Source of the DNA: Eubacteriales bacterium
Lineage (GTDB): Bacteria > Bacillota > Clostridia > Lachnospirales > Lachnospiraceae
Direction of reading: 5' to 3'
Length of the DNA stretch: 64,000 nucleotides
NCBI GenBank assembly: GCA_030524135.1
Contig: JAUNHA010000002.1
Coordinates: forward strand, 36,186-100,185
This document shows, one piece after another, positions 5,163 through 17,800 of the stretch (the first letter of the stretch is position 1; each line of letters begins with the position of its first letter). The notes beneath the pieces are model-generated. The model ran no database searches and was not told where the DNA came from. It was given only the letters and a program-made list of their open reading frames with translations. Position numbers and translations under genes: made by a program.

Positions 5163-6809
5163 TTATTCTGCCTTATAAGCGGTTTCTCCATTGACCAGAG
5201 TCTCAAGCACTTTGATATCCCTGATCTTCATCGGGTCGCAGGTAAGCGGATTTTCCGCGAGAATAACGATATCCGCATACTTTCCCGCCTCAAGAGAGCC
5301 TCTCTCCTTTTCCTCATGGTGCTGATATGCCGCATGGATCGTGTACGCCTTGATCGCGTCCATAACGGAAATACGCTGCGCCTCTCCGAGCACCTGTCCT
5401 TCGTATGTCACGCGGTTCACTGCCGTCCAGATCGTCTGAAGCGGGTTCTGCGGGAATACCGGCGTATCACAGTGAATGGAGAACGGCATGCCTCTTTTCA
5501 CCAGAGACGCCGCCGGGCTCAGGCGCTCCGCGCGCTCCGGGCCGAGGAAGGTATCCTTATGTCTGTCTCCATAGTAGAAAATGTGCGGCGGGAACAGGGA
5601 AAGAAATACACCCTGATCCTTTGCCCGGTCGATCTGATCCTCTCTGATCGTCTGCGCATGAATAATGTTGTGGCGGATATCCGGAAGCGGGTGCTTTTCC
5701 TGCAGCTCCTTATATCCGTCCAGAATATCATCCATACCCGCATCTCCGTTGCAGTGAATCAGAATCTGCTTTCCTCTCTCATGGATAAAGGTGAAATCTT
5801 CCATCAGCTTTTCCTTCGTCAGCGACGGATATCCGCAGTAGGAGGCATCTCCCTTGTACGGCGTATAATACGGCTTTGAAAGGTAAGCGCTCATGTTCTG
5901 GATCGTGCCGTCATACATCAGCTTGATGCCTCCCATATGCAGCCATTCCGGATCCAGATCAAATGCATCCACCTGATCCAGATATTCCGCTCCGCTCACA
6001 GTGCGGTACGGATAGAACGGATTGAACACGACTCTCGTATGCAGTCTTCCCTCTGCCGCGCCTTTCTGGTAGGTCGGGATATCCTTCAGCATCGTACCGC
6101 CGTCATTTGCGGTCGTAACGCCGCAGGACGCATACTTCAGCGTCGCTGCCTCGATCTTTGCCACCGGATCCTTGACCGTTCCGATATCGCCGAGTTTTCC
6201 AGCCGTCAGCATATTGGTCACATTTCTTGCAGCCTCCTCTTCAAGGATACCGTTCGGGGTCTTTCCGTCTTCCTCTCTCCAGATCACGCCGCCAACCGGA
6301 TCCGGCGTATCTGCATTGATGCCCGCGCGCTCAAGCGTTACGCTGTTGACATAGAGGTAGTGAAGCGTCTTATCCAGAATATAGATCGGATTGGTACTGG
6401 ATATCCCATCCAGCTCCTTTCTCAGAAGTCCGCGTTTTTCCTTCACGCCGTTCTCCGTAAATCCGCTTGCATAGATCCATGCGCCCGGCGGTGTGATGGC
6501 AGCTCTTTCTCTCAGAAGCGTGAGGCACTTTTCGATCGTGTCCACAGTTCCGACAGGCGGCGCCTCCAGATTGACAAAATGGCTGTACAGCGCAACCTGA
6601 TGCACATGGCTGTGCCCGTCATAAAAGCCCGGAAGAATCGTTTTCCCCTCCAGATCAATGACCTCGGCATCCTGCCCGAACTGCTCCAGCATCTTTGCCT
6701 TCGTGCCAACGCCCGCCACCTTTTTACCGGCTACGGCAATTGCCTCGCACACGCTGCTCTTTGCGTCTGCAGTTATGACCGTGCCGTTCACATAGATTTT
6801 CGTTTTCAT
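5163..6809 (-). CDS. YtcJ-like metal-dependent amidohydrolase (amidohydrolase family 3)
   Basis: A 548-residue cytosolic amidohydrolase. It opens with the small beta-sandwich that flanks the barrel, then GFYDGHSHVH with the HxH metal ligands (about residues 65-67). Further likely ligands lie in QILIHCNGDAG and FSIHCDTPVFPQNP. The C-terminus (GKYADIVILAENPL) is typical of the YtcJ/DAN deaminase-like group. The substrate is unknown; relatives act on amides, cyclic ureides or formyl groups. It follows an EamA permease by 73 bases on the same strand, probably as one transcript under the LysR gene at 7966. A GAGGGGA ribosome site supports the start. Confidence 0.87.
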   Translation of the reverse strand: MKTKIYVNGTVITADAKSSVCEAIAVAGKKVAGVGTKAKMLEQFGQDAEVIDLEGKTILPGFYDGHSHVHQVALYSHFVNLEAPPVGTVDTIEKCLTLLRERAAITPPGAWIYASGFTENGVKEKRGLLRKELDGISSTNPIYILDKTLHYLYVNSVTLERAGINADTPDPVGGVIWREEDGKTPNGILEEEAARNVTNMLTAGKLGDIGTVKDPVAKIEAATLKYASCGVTTANDGGTMLKDIPTYQKGAAEGRLHTRVVFNPFYPYRTVSGAEYLDQVDAFDLDPEWLHMGGIKLMYDGTIQNMSAYLSKPYYTPYKGDASYCGYPSLTKEKLMEDFTFIHERGKQILIHCNGDAGMDDILDGYKELQEKHPLPDIRHNIIHAQTIREDQIDRAKDQGVFLSLFPPHIFYYGDRHKDTFLGPERAERLSPAASLVKRGMPFSIHCDTPVFPQNPLQTIWTAVNRVTYEGQVLGEAQRISVMDAIKAYTIHAAYQHHEEKERGSLEAGKYADIVILAENPLTCDPMKIRDIKVLETLVNGETAYKAE

Positions 6810-8953: not shown

Positions 8954-10558
8954 TTACCAGATCACACGGTAGCTCTTTTCCTCTGCAAGCTCCACCTTTG
9001 GATGAGTTCCCAGATAATCGATCATAAGCTCTGTCATTTCCGTATTGATCTCTTTTATCACCTTAAGCCCCTGATACATCTCATACCCACCTGCTCCGGA
9101 AGCGCGGTAATTGTTAAGGCAAAGAGAAAATGTATCCGTGTCCTCTACCGGCTTTCCCTGACGGGTGAGGCTCACGATCCGGCTTCCTGCCGGTTTTCCG
9201 GCGTCGATCACATAGTCGATCCCAGCAAAATAATCATAATTGTAATGCTCTACCTTCGGCTTGATAAAGCAGTCCGCAACCCGGATTCCATCCTCTGCTG
9301 CCGCATCCGGCTGGAAATATTCCGCCGTCCGCTCAAGCGCTTTTCTGAGCGTCTTTCCGTCGATCTCCAGTACCATAAGGGTATTCGGATAGGGGTAAGA
9401 CGCGATCACATCCCTTGTCGTCACAGATGTTCTGAAGCCCCCGACTTCATTGGCAAGTCCGCAGCACGCAATCTGGGCACCGCTGTAATATAGCTGTATC
9501 TGGTTGATGAAATCCGCGATCGGAGAGCCGTTTGCTGCCATGCGGATCTTGGTATCCGGAGAAAGCTCCCGGGGAAGCGTTCCCAAGGGCTCGTCCAGCC
9601 AGGTCTGGGTCTTCTGCTCGAATGGAAGCAGTGCTTTTGCCGCATATTTCACTCGGGAAAGCTGCTCCGTGTCCTCTGTCGCTGTATCTGCCATATCTTC
9701 GGAAATCGCAGAATATACAGCCTTTGCATCCGCTTCCTTCACAGGAACCAGCTCTGCCTCCACATGCAGTCCGTCGCCGTAGACCGTACCGCTAAGATGC
9801 AGATATTTCTGCGCCTTATCCGGCACCTGCGCCGTAAAGGTTCCGTTGATCCATTTGCCGGAAAAAGCCATGTGCTGATGTCCCGTAAGCAGGATATCCA
9901 CCGGAAGCGTCGTGCAGATCTTATAACCCACATCCTCTCCCGTTGTACTTAGAATGCGTCCTGTCTCCAGATCCGCCTCATAGCCGCCATGATAAATGCA
10001 AACGCGAAGATCCGCCCGGTCGCCGATCTCATCGATCACCTGCTTGAGCGCCTCATAGGGACTGCTGATCTCAAAGTACTCCAGATTTTCCTTCTGCTCC
10101 CAGACATTCACATAATCCGTTACGATACCGATCACCGCCACGCGGAGGCCATTTTCCAGACGTACGATATGATACGGCTGCACGAGATTCCGGTCCTCTT
10201 CCTTTTTGATCCTGAGATTTGCACAGACCGCCCTTGCGTGGAGCTTTTTCAGATATCCGGTCAGATAATCATAGCCGTAATTAAAATCATGATTACCGAT
10301 CGTCACAAAGTCATATCCCGCCGCATTCATGGCTTCTGCCTGTGCCGTCGTGTCTCCTGCAAACTTCTGGCAATACATGTCGAAGGCAGAGCCCTGCAGC
10401 ATATCGCCGCCGTCCAGCACCAGCGTATTCTGATCTTTCCGAAATCCGCAGGCAGCAGCGAGAAGCCCAAGCTGCTTCCTCTCTCTGTCCGCATAGTTTT
10501 CCGGATACAGATATCCGTGAATATCCGAAGTAAAATAAATGCTGAAATTCTGTTCCAT
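8954..10558 (-). CDS. 5'-nucleotidase / 2',3'-cyclic phosphodiesterase family protein, apparently cytosolic
   Basis: A 534-residue UshA/CpdB-type metallophosphoesterase. Metal-binding motifs are TSDIHGYLYPENY (near residue 10), LDGGDMLQGS and IGNHDFNYGYD. The C-terminal substrate domain includes NGSPIADFINQ. Family members are usually exported, but this protein begins MEQNFSIYFTSDIHG with no signal peptide or anchor. The start at 10558 lies one base after the PhnE stop, so it is the last gene of the phnD-C-E-E-type operon. It may release phosphate from an imported phosphoester inside the cell; this is inference from position and missing signal peptide. Confidence 0.85.
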   Translation of the reverse strand: MEQNFSIYFTSDIHGYLYPENYADRERKQLGLLAAACGFRKDQNTLVLDGGDMLQGSAFDMYCQKFAGDTTAQAEAMNAAGYDFVTIGNHDFNYGYDYLTGYLKKLHARAVCANLRIKKEEDRNLVQPYHIVRLENGLRVAVIGIVTDYVNVWEQKENLEYFEISSPYEALKQVIDEIGDRADLRVCIYHGGYEADLETGRILSTTGEDVGYKICTTLPVDILLTGHQHMAFSGKWINGTFTAQVPDKAQKYLHLSGTVYGDGLHVEAELVPVKEADAKAVYSAISEDMADTATEDTEQLSRVKYAAKALLPFEQKTQTWLDEPLGTLPRELSPDTKIRMAANGSPIADFINQIQLYYSGAQIACCGLANEVGGFRTSVTTRDVIASYPYPNTLMVLEIDGKTLRKALERTAEYFQPDAAAEDGIRVADCFIKPKVEHYNYDYFAGIDYVIDAGKPAGSRIVSLTRQGKPVEDTDTFSLCLNNYRASGAGGYEMYQGLKVIKEINTEMTELMIDYLGTHPKVELAEEKSYRVIW

Positions 10559-10559
10559 C

Positions 10560-11387
10560 TTATCCTCTCGCAAGCTTTGTTCTGATCTTTGTCGAAATGA
10601 CCTCAATAATGAGAATGAGCACGATCAGTCCGCAGAGAATCGCACCTACCTCGTTCCAGCGATAGGAATTCATCGCAAAGATCAGAGGCGCACCGATACC
10701 GCCCGCGCCTACGAGACCGAGTACCGTAGCGTCGCGGAGATTGATATCAAAACGATAAATGATCGTTGATACAAAATCCGGGAAAAGCTGCGGCAGGATA
10801 CCGTAGCGTATCTTCTGGAACAGATTGCAGCCGGACGCATCCAGAGATTCCAGAATGCGCGTATCCATATCCTCAATATATTCCACATACATCTTGCAGA
10901 GCATGCCGATCGAGCACAGAGACATCGTGAGAAGTCCCGCAAATGCACCCGGACCCGTCACACGGATAAACATAAGGCCGTATACAAAGGCCGGAATCGT
11001 ACGGATCGCCATAATAAACACACGGAACAGAACTGCAACCGGCTTCGGTACAATATTGGTCGCCGACAGAAACGCAAGCGGAACCGCAAGCACCGCTCCT
11101 ACGATCGTTCCCAGAAACGCAATGCAGACCGTCTCAAGCAGCAGATATCCGACGCCCTGCGTGGTCGGATTAAACAAAAGCTCTGTATCCGGATGAAAAA
11201 TACCGTTCAGAATTCCAATCGCGATCTTCATTCCGTCAAGTCCCGATGCCGCGATCTCAACCGTAGAAGAAGACCATGCGAGCAGCGCGACGATCACAAG
11301 CGCAATTCCCAGATTAACGGCAAAGCGCTTCGGCTCTTTTTCATAGGCAGCCTGAATTTCCCTTGAAATATGTTCGCTATTACTCAT
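10560..11387 (-). CDS. phnE: Phosphonate/phosphate-type ABC transporter permease (PhnE family), second copy
   Basis: A 275-residue BPD-type inner membrane permease of the PhnE family. It has about six membrane segments and a cytoplasmic EAA-type loop near residues 180-200 (LESLDASGCNLFQKIRYGIL) that should contact the ATPase. It follows the first PhnE by 12 bases with an AAGGAGG ribosome site. Two PhnE-like permeases probably form a heterodimer with PhnC. The imported compound (phosphonate, phosphite, phosphate or an organophosphate) cannot be settled from sequence. Confidence 0.88.
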   Translation of the reverse strand: MSNSEHISREIQAAYEKEPKRFAVNLGIALVIVALLAWSSSTVEIAASGLDGMKIAIGILNGIFHPDTELLFNPTTQGVGYLLLETVCIAFLGTIVGAVLAVPLAFLSATNIVPKPVAVLFRVFIMAIRTIPAFVYGLMFIRVTGPGAFAGLLTMSLCSIGMLCKMYVEYIEDMDTRILESLDASGCNLFQKIRYGILPQLFPDFVSTIIYRFDINLRDATVLGLVGAGGIGAPLIFAMNSYRWNEVGAILCGLIVLILIIEVISTKIRTKLARG

Positions 11388-11399
11388 CGCCTTGCCTCC

Positions 11400-12281
11400 T
11401 TAAGTCAGCCTGCTTCTGATGAAGTGGCTGATATATTCGATCAGAACGACCGTGACAAACAGCACGATCAGGATCATGCCGACAGAATCATACTCACGCC
11501 AGCCGATCTTCTCATTGAGGATAAGGCCAAGTCCGCCCGCACCCACGTATCCGAGGATCGCCGCATAACGGACATTTCCCTCAAAGCAGTACAGCGCCGT
11601 GCTCAGATAGGTCGGAAGCACCTGCGGCATGATCGAACGCCACAGCGCCCTCGGCTTTGAAAGGCCCATCGCCTCACTGGCCTCGTATGCGCCCATATCC
11701 ACGGTATCGATCAGCTCGTAGAGCTGCTTTCCGATATAAGCAAAGGAAAAAATAGCGATCGCTGTCGTACCGGCAAGCGTGCCGAGACCGAAAATATATG
11801 TCGCGATCAGCGCGGTAACCAGTGTCGGAAGCGTACGCAGAATGCTCAGAAAAACCTTGGTCACGCCGAGTACGATCTTGTTTTTTACGATATTGCTCGC
11901 TGCAAGCACGGCAAACGGCACGCAAAGCACCGAACCGACAAAAGAACCGAGCAGCGACATTTTGATCGTATCGAACAGCGGTCCCCAGATGCTGCCGAGA
12001 TAGGACAGCTTCGGCGGGAACATCGCGCCGAGAATTACAAAAAACTGGTTTCCTCTTTTTAAAATCGTTGCGAGATTGAAGCCGGTGATCTTGACGGAAA
12101 GGATCGTCATCAACAGAAGGAGCAGCAGCACAAGCGGTGTGCGTGACGCTTTTTCATAGCTGATCTTTCCGTTCGGAAGCTCATACATTTTGGGTTTGAA
12201 AAGCTTATCATACAGGGAAAGCTCCGCAGCTTTCGAAGCATTTCCGGAAGCGCCCGCGGATGTCTTTTTCTTATCGCTCAT
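11400..12281 (-). CDS. phnE: Phosphonate/phosphate-type ABC transporter permease (PhnE family), first copy
   Basis: A 293-residue PhnE-family permease with an unusually long hydrophilic N-terminus (about 45 residues) before its first membrane segment. The EAA-type loop is EASEAMGLSKPRALWRSI. The longest frame starts with GTG at 12284, but GTG is only one base from the GGAGG. ATG at 12281 overlaps the phnC stop as TGATG, a classic coupled start. It pairs with the downstream PhnE. Confidence 0.88.
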   Translation of the reverse strand: MSDKKKTSAGASGNASKAAELSLYDKLFKPKMYELPNGKISYEKASRTPLVLLLLLLMTILSVKITGFNLATILKRGNQFFVILGAMFPPKLSYLGSIWGPLFDTIKMSLLGSFVGSVLCVPFAVLAASNIVKNKIVLGVTKVFLSILRTLPTLVTALIATYIFGLGTLAGTTAIAIFSFAYIGKQLYELIDTVDMGAYEASEAMGLSKPRALWRSIMPQVLPTYLSTALYCFEGNVRYAAILGYVGAGGLGLILNEKIGWREYDSVGMILIVLFVTVVLIEYISHFIRSRLT

Positions 12282-13087
12282 CACGCCTCCTTTGCCGTCT
12301 GCTCTGCCGCGGCGGCCTTTTTCTGCATAACCTTATCCTTCTCCTCGTCCTGTCCGCCCTTGTAGATCTCGTCAAGGACTTCCGGCGTTACATTTTTGGA
12401 AGGGCCGTCGTATACGATACGTCCGGCGCGGATGCCGATGATGCGGTCCGCATAGTCGAGCGCAAGCTCCACATGGTGAATGTTGATGAGAACGGAGATA
12501 TTAAGCTCCTGATTGACTTTTTTGAAGTCATCCATGACCTGCTTTGCCGTCACCGGATCCAGCGCCGCAACCGGCTCGTCCGCAAGAATGATCTTTGGAT
12601 TCTGCGCGAGCGTTCTTGCAAGCGCCACTCGCTGCTGCTGTCCGCCGGAAAGCTGGTCCGCTCTCGTATACGCCTTGTCAAGGATGCCAACCTTATCCAG
12701 ATTTTCAAGCGCGCAGAGCTTCTCCTCCTTCGTGTATACGCCGAATATCGTGCGCCACAGAGGCATCTCCGGAACCATTGCCGTCAGTACGTTTTTGATA
12801 ACCGTAGTGCGGTTTACCAGGTTGAAGGACTGGAAGATCATGCCAATGCCGCGTCTGAACTTCCGGAGTTCTTTTCCGCGAAGGCCGGATACGTCCATGC
12901 CGTTTACAGTGAGCTTTCCGTCCGTAATATCGTGCATCTTGTTGATCGTACGGATCAGCGTGGATTTACCTGCGCCGGAAAGACCGATAATGCCGACAAA
13001 TTCACCCTGTTCGATCGTGAGATTTACGTCATCAAGTCCTTTTACGCCGTTCGGATAAACCTTGGATACATGATTAAACTCTATCAT
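12281..13087 (-). CDS. phnC: Phosphonate/phosphate-type ABC transporter ATP-binding protein
   Basis: A 268-residue ABC ATPase with Walker A GLSGAGKSTL (about residue 35), signature LSGGQQQRVALART, and Walker B ILADEPVAALDP. It starts MIEFNHVSKVYPNGVKGLDD, a usual PhnC opening. A charged C-terminal tail of about 25 residues extends past the normal end. The gene is 214 bases downstream of the binding-protein gene, with a stable hairpin between, and is translationally coupled to phnE. Confidence 0.92.
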   Translation of the reverse strand: MIEFNHVSKVYPNGVKGLDDVNLTIEQGEFVGIIGLSGAGKSTLIRTINKMHDITDGKLTVNGMDVSGLRGKELRKFRRGIGMIFQSFNLVNRTTVIKNVLTAMVPEMPLWRTIFGVYTKEEKLCALENLDKVGILDKAYTRADQLSGGQQQRVALARTLAQNPKIILADEPVAALDPVTAKQVMDDFKKVNQELNISVLINIHHVELALDYADRIIGIRAGRIVYDGPSKNVTPEVLDEIYKGGQDEEKDKVMQKKAAAAEQTAKEA

Positions 13088-13235
13088 ACCTTTCTTTTCT
13101 CCCTTTTATACCATTCCTCGGGCAGCGCCCTGTGCCCGGCAGACCGGCAGCTGCTTTCTGCCGCTTTTTTCCTCCGGTCCGTCCGGCACAAACCGCCGTC
13201 TGTGCCTCCATAAGTTTCTGTAAAAATAACGATAA

Positions 13236-13284
13236 GGACAGCCGCGGAAATTCACGGCCCTTATGCCTTTTTCCGCAGCTGTCC
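13236..13284 (-). terminator. Strong intra-operon hairpin between phnD and phnC
   Basis: On the minus strand GGACAGCTGCGGAAA pairs with TTTCCGCGGCTGTCC (15-bp arms, one mismatch), followed by TTATCGTTATTTTT. It is probably a partial terminator or 3' stabiliser giving more binding-protein message than transporter message, a common arrangement in ABC importers. Confidence 0.65.
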
Positions 13285-13301
13285 CCCTCTGTTTCAGATC
13301 A

Positions 13302-14363
13302 TTAGTTTGCAGCCTGCATCTGCTTGATGATCTCCTGTGCCTTTTTCTCGTTTTCGTAGTCTTCCTTGCTTGCCTTCTCGTATCCCTGGTGGCTGTAAAT
13401 AGAGATGACCTTCTTGCCTTCATCTGTCTTTGCGATCTCAATGAAAGCATTTGCAAGTGCCTCTTTCTCGGCGTCGTCCATATCGCCTCTTACAGAGATC
13501 GTGTCATTGTAGATCGGAGCCGTAACGCCGATAACGTCCGTCTCATCCCAGACACCCTTCTCGCGTCCGAATTCGGTCTGCCACTTATCCTCATAGTCAC
13601 GTCTGCCGTCTGCATATACGCAGAGAACATCGACCTGGCCGGAAGCCAGTCTTGCGAAAGAAGAGCCGTAGGAATCAGCCTGTACCGCATGGGACAGATC
13701 CGTGATGGACTTTCCGTAATTATCCTGCAGCCAGATGGTCGGATAGATATAGCCTGCGGAAGAAGAAGATCCCATAACAGACCAGTTTGCGCTGTCAAGA
13801 TCCTCCCAGGTAAGCGCCTCGCCGGCATTTACCTTATCAGCCAGCTCGCGTCCCTTTGCAGACGGTCCTGCAATGATAAGCGCTCTGTAGAACGTAACCT
13901 GCTGATCAGATGCCGTGGTCGGCTTATTCTCATTCCATACCTTCGGATCATCAGATTCGATTGAAAGTCCGTCTCTCGTTGCGGTCAGGATAACGTCCGC
14001 TCCGTCCTCGTACAGCACATAGGTGCCGCCCGGGATCAGACCTACATCCGTAGTGCCTGCCGTAAGCGCTTCGCCGACTGCCTCATAGTTCGTACCAACA
14101 GTGATGTCAACCTCTCCGATGTCATAGCCCTGCTTCTTCATCTCATCCTTCAGAAGTCCTTTCAGCGGCTCAGTCGCCGTTACGATCTCCTCTGGCTCAC
14201 GGGACGGAACAAAGCTTACCGACAGCGTATCGATCTTCTTAAGGCCGTCAGCCTCTGCGGAAGCTTCGCCTGCTGCAGCCGTCTCGCTGCTGCTCTGTCC
14301 GCAGCCTGCAAGCATGGAAGCCGCCAGTGCCATGGAAAGGGTTACTGCATAAAATTTTCTCAT
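13302..14363 (-). CDS. phnD: Phosphonate/phosphate-type ABC transporter substrate-binding lipoprotein (PhnD family)
   Basis: A 353-residue periplasmic-binding-type lipoprotein. It has a signal peptide ending in the lipobox LAGC (Cys21), a Ser/Ala/Glu-rich linker, then the PhnD fold. Recognisable parts are SFVPSREPEEIV near the mature N-terminus, TDVGLIPGGTYVLY and the SSSSAGYIYPTIWL phosphate/phosphonate contact loop. The protein would be anchored outside the membrane and deliver ligand to PhnE-PhnE-PhnC. Ligand identity is open. A good promoter lies about 90 bases upstream. Confidence 0.9.
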   Translation of the reverse strand: MRKFYAVTLSMALAASMLAGCGQSSSETAAAGEASAEADGLKKIDTLSVSFVPSREPEEIVTATEPLKGLLKDEMKKQGYDIGEVDITVGTNYEAVGEALTAGTTDVGLIPGGTYVLYEDGADVILTATRDGLSIESDDPKVWNENKPTTASDQQVTFYRALIIAGPSAKGRELADKVNAGEALTWEDLDSANWSVMGSSSSAGYIYPTIWLQDNYGKSITDLSHAVQADSYGSSFARLASGQVDVLCVYADGRRDYEDKWQTEFGREKGVWDETDVIGVTAPIYNDTISVRGDMDDAEKEALANAFIEIAKTDEGKKVISIYSHQGYEKASKEDYENEKKAQEIIKQMQAAN

Positions 14364-14502: not shown

Positions 14503-14784
14503 TCAAGCCAGCTGATATTCATCGATCAGATGCTGCACCATTTCCGGTCCGTCCGGCAGGAATACCTTATCGTCAATGACCAGGCAGGGGATGCCTGCGC
14601 GGTGTTCCTTTCTGACGCCTTCCAATACCGGCGATGTGTCGCGCAGCGTTAAAAACAGCTTCAGCTTTCCGACGCTCTCACAAATATCCACATACAGATA
14701 CTTAACTCCATTCTGGGAAAGAACCTCTTTCACCGGCGGACATCCGCCTCATGTTCCGGTTCCGTATAATATCACCTTTCTCAT
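14503..14784 (-). CDS. Glutaredoxin-like selenoprotein (COG4545-like, UxxC), in-frame TGA
   Basis: The frame runs from ATG 14784 (AAGGAGG 6 bases upstream) to TGA 14503. It crosses one in-frame TGA at codon 12 (14749-14751): MRKVILYGTGT-U-GGCPPVKEVL. Downstream it matches the small glutaredoxin-related family (LKLFLTLRD, AGIPCLVIDD), in which the first active-site residue is Cys in a CxxC; here it is UGA, giving UxxC with Cys15. A SECIS-like hairpin follows. The start signal and the homology both require the upstream part, so a selenocysteine codon explains the data better than a pseudogene. It is probably a cytosolic thiol/selenol redox protein. A gene-caller will show only a truncated ORF at 14503-14733. 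Confidence 0.8.
14715..14734 (-). promoter_or_regulatory. Bacterial SECIS-like element in the glutaredoxin-like gene
   Basis: The minus-strand sequence 15-34 bases after the TGA folds as GG, bulged U, GAAAG, loop AGGUU, CUUUC, CC. A bulged U and G residues early in the apical loop are the SelB-contact features known from E. coli fdhF, here about three bases further from the UGA. A second hairpin (GGCGG/CCGCC) lies directly between the UGA and this element. Confidence 0.7.
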
Positions 14785-14815
14785 AAACATCCTCCTTCTT
14801 ACCGTGCAATTCTTC

Positions 14816-14859
14816 AAAACACAGAAGAACCCCCTTACGGGGATTCTCCTTCTGTGTTT
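14816..14859 (-). terminator. Terminator after carB
   Basis: AAACACAGAAG pairs with CTTCTGTGTTT, with an inner GAATCCCC/GGGGGTTC helix and a GTAA loop. It lies 16 bases past the carB stop and upstream of the glutaredoxin-like gene. Confidence 0.75.
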
Positions 14860-14874
14860 CGCCACATATTTATA

Positions 14875-17800
14875 TCATAAACGCGCGATATCTACAAGTG
14901 TCAGATCATTTTCACGGTTTTCAAGGCTTGTGATCAGTGCCTCCGCCGTATCCATCGCAGTGATCACATTTACGCCGGTCTCGATCGCATTGCGGCGGAT
15001 CAGGAAGCCGTCGCGGCTGTGTTCCACGCCTCTCGGAGGAATATCGATCACAAGATCAAGCCTGTGTCCGAGGATCAGATCCATCAGGTTCGGAGACGGC
15101 TCTTCATATTTATTGATCGTCTCCGCGTTAATTCCCGCTGCGCGAAGGTCTTCCGCCGTACCATCCGTCGCATAAATATGGTATCCAAGCGCCTCAAAAC
15201 GCTTTGCGATCGGGATCACCTCCGGACGGTCGGATTTCCGTACGGTAATGACCATGTTTTTATATTTCGGCAGGCGGATGCCCGCTCCGAGAAATGCCTT
15301 GTAAAGCGCCTCATTAAAGGATTTCGAAATACCCAGGCATTCTCCGGTGGACTTCATCTCAGGCCCCAGATTGATGTCGGCGCCGCGGATCTTTTCAAAG
15401 GAAAATACCGGAATTTTGATCGCGTAATATCCGGCCTCCTTCTGCAGTCCCGGCTCGTAGCCCATTTCCTTAAGCTTCTTTCCGAGAATAACGCCCGTTG
15501 CGAGCTTTACGATCGGAATCCCCGTCACCTTGCTGATATACGGCACGGTACGGCTCGAGCGCGGATTGACCTCGATCACATAGATCTGCCCGTCGCAGAG
15601 AATAAACTGGATATTCAGCAGTCCGATGATATGCAGCTCTCTTGCAAGCCTTGCCGTATAGTCCGTAATAACCGCCTTTATTTCAGGGTTCAGATCCTGT
15701 GCCGGATAAACGGAAATGCTGTCGCCCGAATGAATGCCTGCGCGCTCGATATGCTCCATAATACCCGGGATGAGGATGTCCTCCCCGTCACAGACCGCAT
15801 CCACCTCGATCTCCTTGCCCATCAGATATTTATCCACAAGGATCGGGTGATCCTGCGCGATCCGGTTGATATTTTCGATAAAGCGCTCGATGTCATGGTC
15901 ACTGATCGCGATCTGCATGCCCTGACCGCCGAGCACATAGGACGGCCGCACGAGCACAGGATAGCCAAGGGAATGAGCAGCCTCAAGCGCTTCTTCGACT
16001 GTATAGACCGTATGTCCTGCCGGACGCGGAATACCGCAGTTTTCCAGCACCTTGTCAAAAAGCTCACGGTCCTCCGCCGCGTCTACATTTTCCGCGGAGG
16101 TTCCAAGGATCGGCACGCCCATCTTAAGGAGCGCTTCCGTCAGTTTGATCGCCGTCTGTCCGCCGAACTGCACGACTGCGCCATCCGGCTTTTCAAGCCT
16201 TACGACATTTTCCACGTCCTCCGGCGTCAGCGGCTCAAAGTAAAGCTTATTTGCAATATCAAAGTCCGTCGAAACCGTCTCCGGATTATTGTTGATGATA
16301 ATGGTTTCGTAGCCTTCTTTCTCGAATGCCCATGCGCAGTGCACGGAGCAGAAGTCAAACTCGATTCCCTGACCGATCCGGATCGGTCCGCTTCCGAGGA
16401 TCAGAATCTTCTTTTTGTCCGAGGCCGGATCCGCCTCATTTTCTCCATCGAATACGGAGTAATAATACGGTGTCTGTGCGGCAAATTCTGCTGCGCAGGT
16501 ATCTACCATTTTAAATGCAGCCGTGATTCCGAATGAAATCCGGAGTTCCTTCACATCTTCCGCAGTCCTTCCGCTGAGGGATGCAATCACATGATCCGGA
16601 AACTCAAGGCGCTTTGCCTCTCTTAAAAGCGCCTCCGTGAGCGGCTCCTCCCTGAGGCGTTTTTCCATCTCCACGAGCACGGCGATCTTGTCGATGAACC
16701 ATTCATCGATCCTGGAGATCCGGTGGATGGTCTCATAGCCGATGCCGCGTCTCAGGGCCTCCGCGATGCGCCAGATGCGCCTGTCATCCACGATCGACAG
16801 CGCTTCCCTGAGTTCTGCCTCACTTAAATGAGAGAAATCATAGGACATAAGCGAATCCACATGCTGTTCCAGAGAACGGATCGCCTTCATCAGCGCGCCT
16901 TCAAAATTCGTACAGATCGACATGACCTCTCCGGTCGCCTTCATCTGCGTACTCAGATTTCGCTTTGCGCTGATGAACTTGTCAAACGGCAGCCTCGGCA
17001 TCTTTACAACACAGTAATCAAGCGCCGGTTCAAAGCTTGCGTAGGTCTTTCCGGTCACGGTATTTTTGATCTCATCAAGCGTATATCCGAGCGCGATCTT
17101 CGCGGAGACCTTTGCGATCGGATATCCCGTAGCCTTGGATGCGAGCGCCGAGGAACGGGACACGCGCGGATTTACTTCTATGACATAGTATTCGAAGCTT
17201 TCCGGATGCAGCGCATACTGCACATTGCAGCCGCCCGTGATGCCAAGCTCTGAAATGATATTGAACGCAGAGTCTCTGAGCATCTGATATTCCTTGTCGC
17301 CAAGCGTCTGAGACGGCGCCACAACGATGGAATCGCCGGTATGCACGCCGACCGGATCCAGGTTTTCCATGTTGCAGACGGTGATGCAGTTGCCGGCGCC
17401 ATCGCGCATCACCTCATATTCGATCTCCTTCCAGCCCGCGATGCATCTCTCTACAAGGACCTGACCGACACGGCTCAAACGAAGGCCGTTTTCCAGGATG
17501 GTCTCAAGCTCCTCCCTGTCGGACGCAATGCCGCCGCCGCTTCCGCCGAGCGTATAGGCAGGACGGAGCACGACAGGATAACCGATCTCCTCCGCAAACG
17601 CGGCTCCATCCTCAACTGTCTCAACGACCTTCGAAGGCGCCACCGGCTCATGGATCTTCTCCATGGTGCGCTTAAATTCAAGCCGGTCCTCCGCCTTTTT
17701 GATCGTGAGTGCGGTCGTACCGATCAGTTTCACATTATGCTCTTTCAGAAAACCGGCCTCTTCAAGCTCCATCGCAAGATTGAGACCCGCCTGTCCGCCG

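Follow-up and report, generated by a model that had tools for sequence, protein, structure and literature searches.

Gene with an in-frame TGA

In the window, that is, the whole stretch of 64,000 nucleotides of DNA that was analysed, a small gene with an in-frame TGA is located on the minus strand. The gene carB ends at 14875, 90 bp upstream of it. The frame runs from the ATG at 14784 to the stop codon TGA at 14505-14503 and encodes MRKVILYGTGT-U-GGCPPVKEVLSQNGVKYLYVDICESVGKLKLFLTLRDTSPVLEGVRKEHRAGIPCLVIDDKVFLPDGPEMVQHLIDEYQLA, with the in-frame TGA written as U; the protein starts with MRKVILYGTGT-U-GGCPPVKEVL and ends with EYQLA. On the plus strand of 14503..14784 there are two stops in the translated frame. 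The following features were assigned to this gene, hereafter the Sec gene:

14784..14503, minus strand: glutaredoxin-like gene with probable selenocysteine, 93 residues and TGA stop, PF00462 match
14797..14791, minus strand: ribosome binding site, sequence AAGGAGG
14751-14749, minus strand: in-frame TGA at codon 12, very probably translated as selenocysteine and opening the UxxC motif
14740..14742, minus strand: TGT, second (predicted resolving) cysteine of UxxC, codon 15
14733..14503, minus strand: 76-aa open reading frame starting with GTG, the sole entry for the Sec gene in the mechanical ORF list
14850..14823, minus strand: terminator-like hairpin in the interval separating carB from the Sec gene, a weak candidate (one found, 0.6 expected in shuffles)

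The first-pass annotation had described the frame MRKVILYGTGT-TGA-GGCPPVKEVL behind an ideal ribosome site, leaving the strand unstated, and had expected automatic callers to report only the short 3' part, or a pseudogene. The frame was borne out as a complete open reading frame of 93 residues on the minus strand, the ribosome binding site is present at the start, and the mechanical ORF list indeed holds just the 76-aa frame. When C was substituted for U in the query, the protein matched PF00462 (Glutaredoxin) with 30.1 bits, above the gathering cut-off of 22.9. Two further cysteines of the window protein, C35 and C67, are not conserved in distant members of an alignment of 18 Sec proteins.

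Selenium machinery of the genome

The sel genes, whose absence had been named as an argument against selenocysteine, were all found in the window genome (G000; 2.23 Mb in 89 contigs, 92% complete). We identified selA with an E value of 1.4e-144 and selB with 363 bits (cut-off 242). A tRNA-Sec gene situated just upstream of selA was detected by ARAGORN as well as by Rfam (61.5 bits). The selD gene is of the Sec type: a TGA interrupts its frame as well, and downstream of this TGA lies a GC-rich hairpin with the same AGGUUCU core as in the Sec gene. TGA also terminates 11 of the 45 window ORFs of at least 200 aa (picked by length, some possibly spurious), and consequently serves as an ordinary stop as well.

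Further candidate selenoprotein genes were noticed in the same genome. The frames of three GrdB-family genes end at a TGA within UGTCTRCG (UxxCxxC), and a frame with CFVU we take, by its motif, to be GrdA. The GrdA-like frame and the three GrdB genes are sited on contigs C71 (L078, L092, L093) and C41 (L094), and truncation by ordinary gene callers is to be expected for them too.

Homologues with selenocysteine or cysteine

Homologues were collected in several searches. Among 61 genomes (the window genome and 60 relatives) 12 matched at E values up to 0.001. The matching gene contained a TGA in six of them (the window genome, four congeners and one member of another family) and was free of stops in the other six. 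An order-wide profile search of 392 genomes gave matches in 63 genomes at 1e-8, of which five contained a match with TGA: G000, G047, G102, G150, and G081, the last in one of its two copies. Scanning the species genomes yielded 20 loci: 13 with TGA (L053-L065, five of them from genomes already matched in the set of 61), four with cysteine (L066-L069), and three distant spirochaete matches (L070-L072). Ten more TGA genes came from an Alkaliphilus MAG and its relatives (60 genomes, 16 matched, none in five of the 16). The counts exclude the spirochaete matches, L010-L013, and duplicates: L080 is the gene of L063, and L002-L007 repeat the genes of the window, L053, L054, L062, L056, and L064. With each genome counted once, a total of 28 Sec genes with TGA at codon 12 was found in 27 genomes.

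The window protein is 36-73% identical to the 17 other Sec proteins of the 18-row alignment. The second cysteine of UxxC is invariant in all 18 aligned proteins and present in the ten later sequences, hence in 28 of 28. As DNA control we used ten Cys relatives, setting aside the 23 order-level relatives L030-L052. In these ten homologues, which were chosen as Cys forms, the codon-12 column reads TGC or TGT, in agreement with the earlier proposal that the TGA occupies the position of the first cysteine of CxxC; nine of them have CxxC and L069 has CxxN.

A cysteine paralogue lacking an intact hairpin is located directly upstream of the Sec gene in L057 (5579-5863, plus strand) and L058 (365-646, plus strand). 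In L060 two Sec genes are arranged in tandem (6001-6276 and 6349-6624, plus strand), each with TGA and hairpin. The homologue L085 (1501-1737, minus strand) keeps the TGA and the hairpin; its start codon is lost and, compared with L081, its frame is shifted near the end. This copy looks damaged, either as a decaying gene or by a sequence error.

Hairpin downstream of the TGA

The first-pass annotation had placed a stem–loop with a bulged U and a G-containing loop 15-34 nt after the TGA. These nucleotides do fold as described, giving GG-(bulged U)-GAAAGA-GGU-UCUUUC-CC. Three structures were considered as parts of a putative SECIS element:

14717..14731, minus strand: apical hairpin GAAAGA-GGU-UCUUUC, with 167 of its 168 pair cells preserved across 28 genes
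14715..14734, minus strand: extended hairpin with bulged U, whose outer GG-CC pairs and bulge are missing from some homologues
14735..14748, minus strand: hairpin GGCGG-AUGU-CCGCC directly after the TGA, absent from the consensus structure of the homologues

The single consensus structure predicted by RNAalifold, with 18 genes and again with 28, is the six-pair hairpin with its three-base loop. The lower hairpin immediately following the TGA of the window gene was rejected as a part of the element, the consensus structure of the homologues being without it.

In the window gene the six-pair hairpin by itself is weak (-3.6 kcal/mol). Over 50 nt the fold reaches -16.8 kcal/mol with a z-score of -2.17, and 7 of 200 shuffled sequences folded equally well or better. 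The 13-nt core of the hairpin, AAAGAGGTTCTTT, occurs a single time in the genome (2.23 Mb). Of 17 Sec genes, 15, among them that of the window, share it unchanged, and the other two differ by one loop base. Because the core is both unique in the genome and shared in this way, the hairpin goes beyond what chance would provide.

Codon usage was compared in the 17 Sec genes. Outside codons 13-24 the mean agreement of synonymous codons was 0.389 versus an expected value of 0.375, with single codons scattering around this mean. At codons 19-22, in contrast, synonymous identity was 1.00 among the genes sharing the residue: AAA and GAG are followed by GTT in 15 of the 17 genes (GCT in L074, TTT in L077) and then by CTT.

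Base pairing was assessed in all 28 Sec genes, where standard pairs are present in 167 of 168 base-pair cells. Compensatory changes with both sides altered were found in six cells belonging to two pairs (G-C to A-U or C-G; A-U to G-C). Shuffling gave on average 0.5 such cells; six cells were reached in none of 500 shuffles and two pairs in 22 of 500. The number of further pair types in these genes was not above the shuffles (204 of 500). When the hairpin columns were slid along the alignment, just 36-80% of the cells were paired. In the ten Cys homologues 32 of 60 cells of the same columns are paired, which is no better than in shuffles.

PMC13188914 gives as criteria for a bacterial SECIS element a loop of 3-9 nt with G in the first two positions, a stem of 4-16 bp, a spacing of 16-37 nt, and a minimum free energy of at most -7.5 kcal/mol. 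The window gene falls within all of these limits with the loop GGU, a stem of six pairs, a spacing of 23 nt and -16.8 kcal/mol over 50 nt. The loop with G in the first two positions and the 23-nt spacing are present in 28 of 28 Sec genes. At least five of the six pairs are formed in every gene, all six in 27 (L084 has five). The energy limit over 50 nt is reached by 24 and missed by four of the 28. Rfam reported no SECIS family in the window with the gathering search, nor at 14690-14800 with a permissive search.

Co-occurrence with selA and exchange of selenocysteine and cysteine

Within the genus (25 genomes) a full-length selA was found in six genomes and the Sec gene in five, all five being among the six (p 1.1e-4, uncorrected for kinship). 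In two other genomes the SelA match was weak (E about 1e-12), and neither was scored as having selA. In all, 17 of the 27 Sec-gene genomes were searched for selA, and 15 of the 17 contain it in full length. It was not found in G436/G047 (77% complete) or in G150 (86% complete), both of which carry the Sec gene. Among four Cys-form genomes searched, two have selA.

In a tree of 52 rows, including 14 of the 23 order-level relatives L030-L052, a supported branch sets off 38 rows that comprise all 28 Sec rows and ten Cys rows. Along this tree, which is based on a short alignment, has many open forks and is midpoint rooted, the Sec/Cys label requires nine changes. As at least five of these changes are forced by supported branches, selenocysteine and cysteine have been exchanged repeatedly.

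Neighbouring genes and possible function

Downstream of the Sec gene and on the same strand (8954-14363, minus) lie genes for a phosphonate-type ABC transporter, recognised with Pfam, followed by a gene of the 5'-nucleotidase family. Two loci from the same genus, L056 and L062, also showed PhnC/PhnE/UshA-like genes, recognised by eye, in the vicinity of the Sec gene, with a lipoprotein-like ORF occupying the PhnD position in L062. Beside L055, from Negativibacillus massiliensis, there are genes that were read as PhnX and PhnW, for which Pfam supports just a HAD hydrolase and a class-V aminotransferase. The tRNA 2-thiouridylase gene mnmA adjoins the Sec gene in L059, L063, and L097 (Pfam) and in L098 (by eye), and in L077 Pfam recognised a class-V aminotransferase (cysteine-desulfurase-like) and thiI beside it. 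A link to sulfur or selenium modification of tRNA is possible.

We considered a shared operon as a clue to the function and rejected it: judged by eye and partly with Pfam, the neighbours differ between the clades and follow no single theme. Since the neighbouring genes vary between species, the position next to carAB, to which the first-pass annotation had drawn attention, is uninformative.

One more specific role would be that of an electron carrier for the glycine-reductase-type selenoenzymes of amino-acid fermenting anaerobes. GrdB-family genes are present in all 27 Sec-gene genomes versus five of the seven genomes with a full-length selA in which no Sec gene was found, and the window genome contains the three GrdB genes and the GrdA-like frame mentioned above. 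The contrast between 27 of 27 and five of seven is, however, weak (p 0.037 for both misses falling among the seven, uncorrected for kinship), and PF07355 may include related reductases. Moreover, inspection of the genes flanking the Sec gene, mostly by eye, revealed no recognisable grd gene, and PMC13188914 names thioredoxin as the reductant of GrdA. The co-occurrence is suggestive at most, and we regard this role as unlikely. We are still more doubtful about the wider proposal of a selenoprotein family of Clostridia distinct from the Sec glutaredoxins catalogued so far, with repeated exchange of selenocysteine and cysteine, acting as dedicated electron carrier to the co-occurring Sec enzymes of the glycine reductase type.

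Alternative readings of the TGA

We considered three alternatives to selenocysteine at codon 12. First, translation could stop at the TGA and restart at the GTG at 14733, so that the real product would be the 76-aa protein. The reading frame from this GTG is open, and ORFs beginning with the same codon were listed at other loci, which is due to codon 18 often being GTG. Codon 18 is, however, no start codon in L074, L076, and L077 (GCG) or in L061 (GTC). Furthermore, the homologues show conservation of codons 1-11, and the short protein would be missing both the first strand and the motif of the active site. This makes the short product very improbable.

Second, the TGA could be a broken cysteine codon in a pseudogene or a sequencing error. 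It is one base away from the TGC and TGT used by the Cys homologues, and the relative L085 appears damaged elsewhere. On the other hand, the TGA is found at codon 12 of 28 genes, of which the 17 aligned others encode proteins 36-73% identical to that of the window, and identical damage would have to recur repeatedly; the hairpin, too, is fixed while the synonymous codons outside it agree just as chance predicts. The homologues, which the first-pass annotation had suggested inspecting for a sequencing error or frame loss at this point, have TGA or cysteine at codon 12 and no frame loss. With the TGA in 28 genes we consider this explanation to be already refuted.

Third, a variant code or a suppressor could insert another amino acid, e.g. 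tryptophan, for which we found no supporting evidence and which is extremely improbable given the use of TGA as the terminal codon of 11 of 45 long window ORFs, the cysteine at codon 12 of the aligned relatives without TGA (rows chosen as Cys forms), and the presence of tRNA-Sec and SelB in the window genome.

Proposed function of the Sec gene

We are highly confident that 14784..14503 (minus strand) is a genuine selenoprotein gene in which SelB and the hairpin direct selenocysteine to codon 12, and that its product is a glutaredoxin-like oxidoreductase. Computation established the reading frame, the presence of the sel genes and of a conserved hairpin, and the conservation of UxxC. Selenocysteine at the TGA is very probable because codon and RNA signal recur together in related anaerobes, most of them with selenium machinery. 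The proposal of a glutaredoxin-like protein with selenocysteine at an in-frame TGA is supported, nearly all computational tests for a selenoprotein gene having turned out in its favour.

According to this model, SelB would bind the Sec-tRNA-Sec and the hairpin situated at a spacing of 23 nt after the UGA (14751-14749), and selenocysteine would be inserted at codon 12. The product is predicted to be a dithiol/selenol oxidoreductase with a thioredoxin fold resembling glutaredoxins. Sec12 would act as the attacking nucleophile and Cys15 as the resolving residue, so that disulfides or similar substrates would be attacked and released. The host is presumably an anaerobe, and the reductant is probably the thioredoxin system rather than glutathione.

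The gene would represent an overlooked selenoprotein of gut and other anaerobic Clostridia, which a plain ORF list truncates and whose window representative no NCBIfam model recognises above its cut-off. A hairpin within a small conserved gene, together with the Sec/Cys paralogues of L057 and L058 and the Sec/Sec tandem of L060, offers a clean natural setting in which to study the advantage of selenocysteine over cysteine and the gain and loss of SECIS elements.

Comparison with known redoxin families

The chemistry of UxxC redoxins is already known, and the Sec gene was compared with the families described. Eight NCBIfam models matched the window protein at E values up to 1, all of them below their cut-offs. 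The best was the YruB family TIGR02196 with 31.3 bits (cut-off 88.55). The matches of eight relatives also stayed below the cut-offs, the best of them reaching 45.0 bits with TIGR02196. The UXX-star models NF041212, NF041114, and NF041211, to which the N-terminal half of the window protein is similar in being Grx-like, gave 20.6, 14.1, and 16.3 bits, far under their cut-offs of 66, 72, and 100, respectively. According to PMC13188914, the motif is UxxT in NF041114 and GxGU in NF041211. In the subfamily of the window protein, by contrast, UxxC is invariant. A 2022 review (PMC9312934) assigns to TIGR02196 a UxxT protein named "distant Grx-like protein 1". The window protein differs from the YruB type by having UxxC instead of UxxT and, in addition, a conserved LKxFLxxRD segment.

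Known relatives of the cysteine type are found in Lachnospiraceae and other Clostridia. They share the motifs CPDC...LKxFLxxRD...GIP and belong to the same family, the window protein being 37-60% identical to seven aligned Cys rows. They differ in having cysteine at codon 12 and in hairpin columns that pair at the level of shuffles (n=10). COG4545 is presumably the name for these glutaredoxin-related proteins.

We take the PDB entries 4TR0 and 4TR1 to be the Sec-type glutaredoxin of Clostridium oremlandii. It resembles the window protein in being a small redoxin with selenocysteine first in UxxC. Entry 4TR0 ("Glutaredoxin 3") was absent from the 17 phmmer matches at E values up to 1 and was matched with an 8-row profile only (2.4e-4), where six glutaredoxin or thioredoxin chains ranked above it. 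With 4TR0 being just a remote match, the window protein would belong to another subfamily of glutaredoxins.

Sec glutaredoxin (Grx, PF00462, UxxC) is catalogued in PMC13188914, where it is attributed to Kim et al. 2011, and in a survey from 2006 (PMC1794560) Alkaliphilus metalliredigenes is credited with two Sec glutaredoxins, one of which could belong to the subfamily described here. Since the window protein scores below every matching NCBIfam cut-off and is remote to 4TR0, and Sec glutaredoxins with UxxC are already known, its sequence points to a new, as yet unlabelled subfamily of the known Sec glutaredoxins, some member of which may have been listed earlier.
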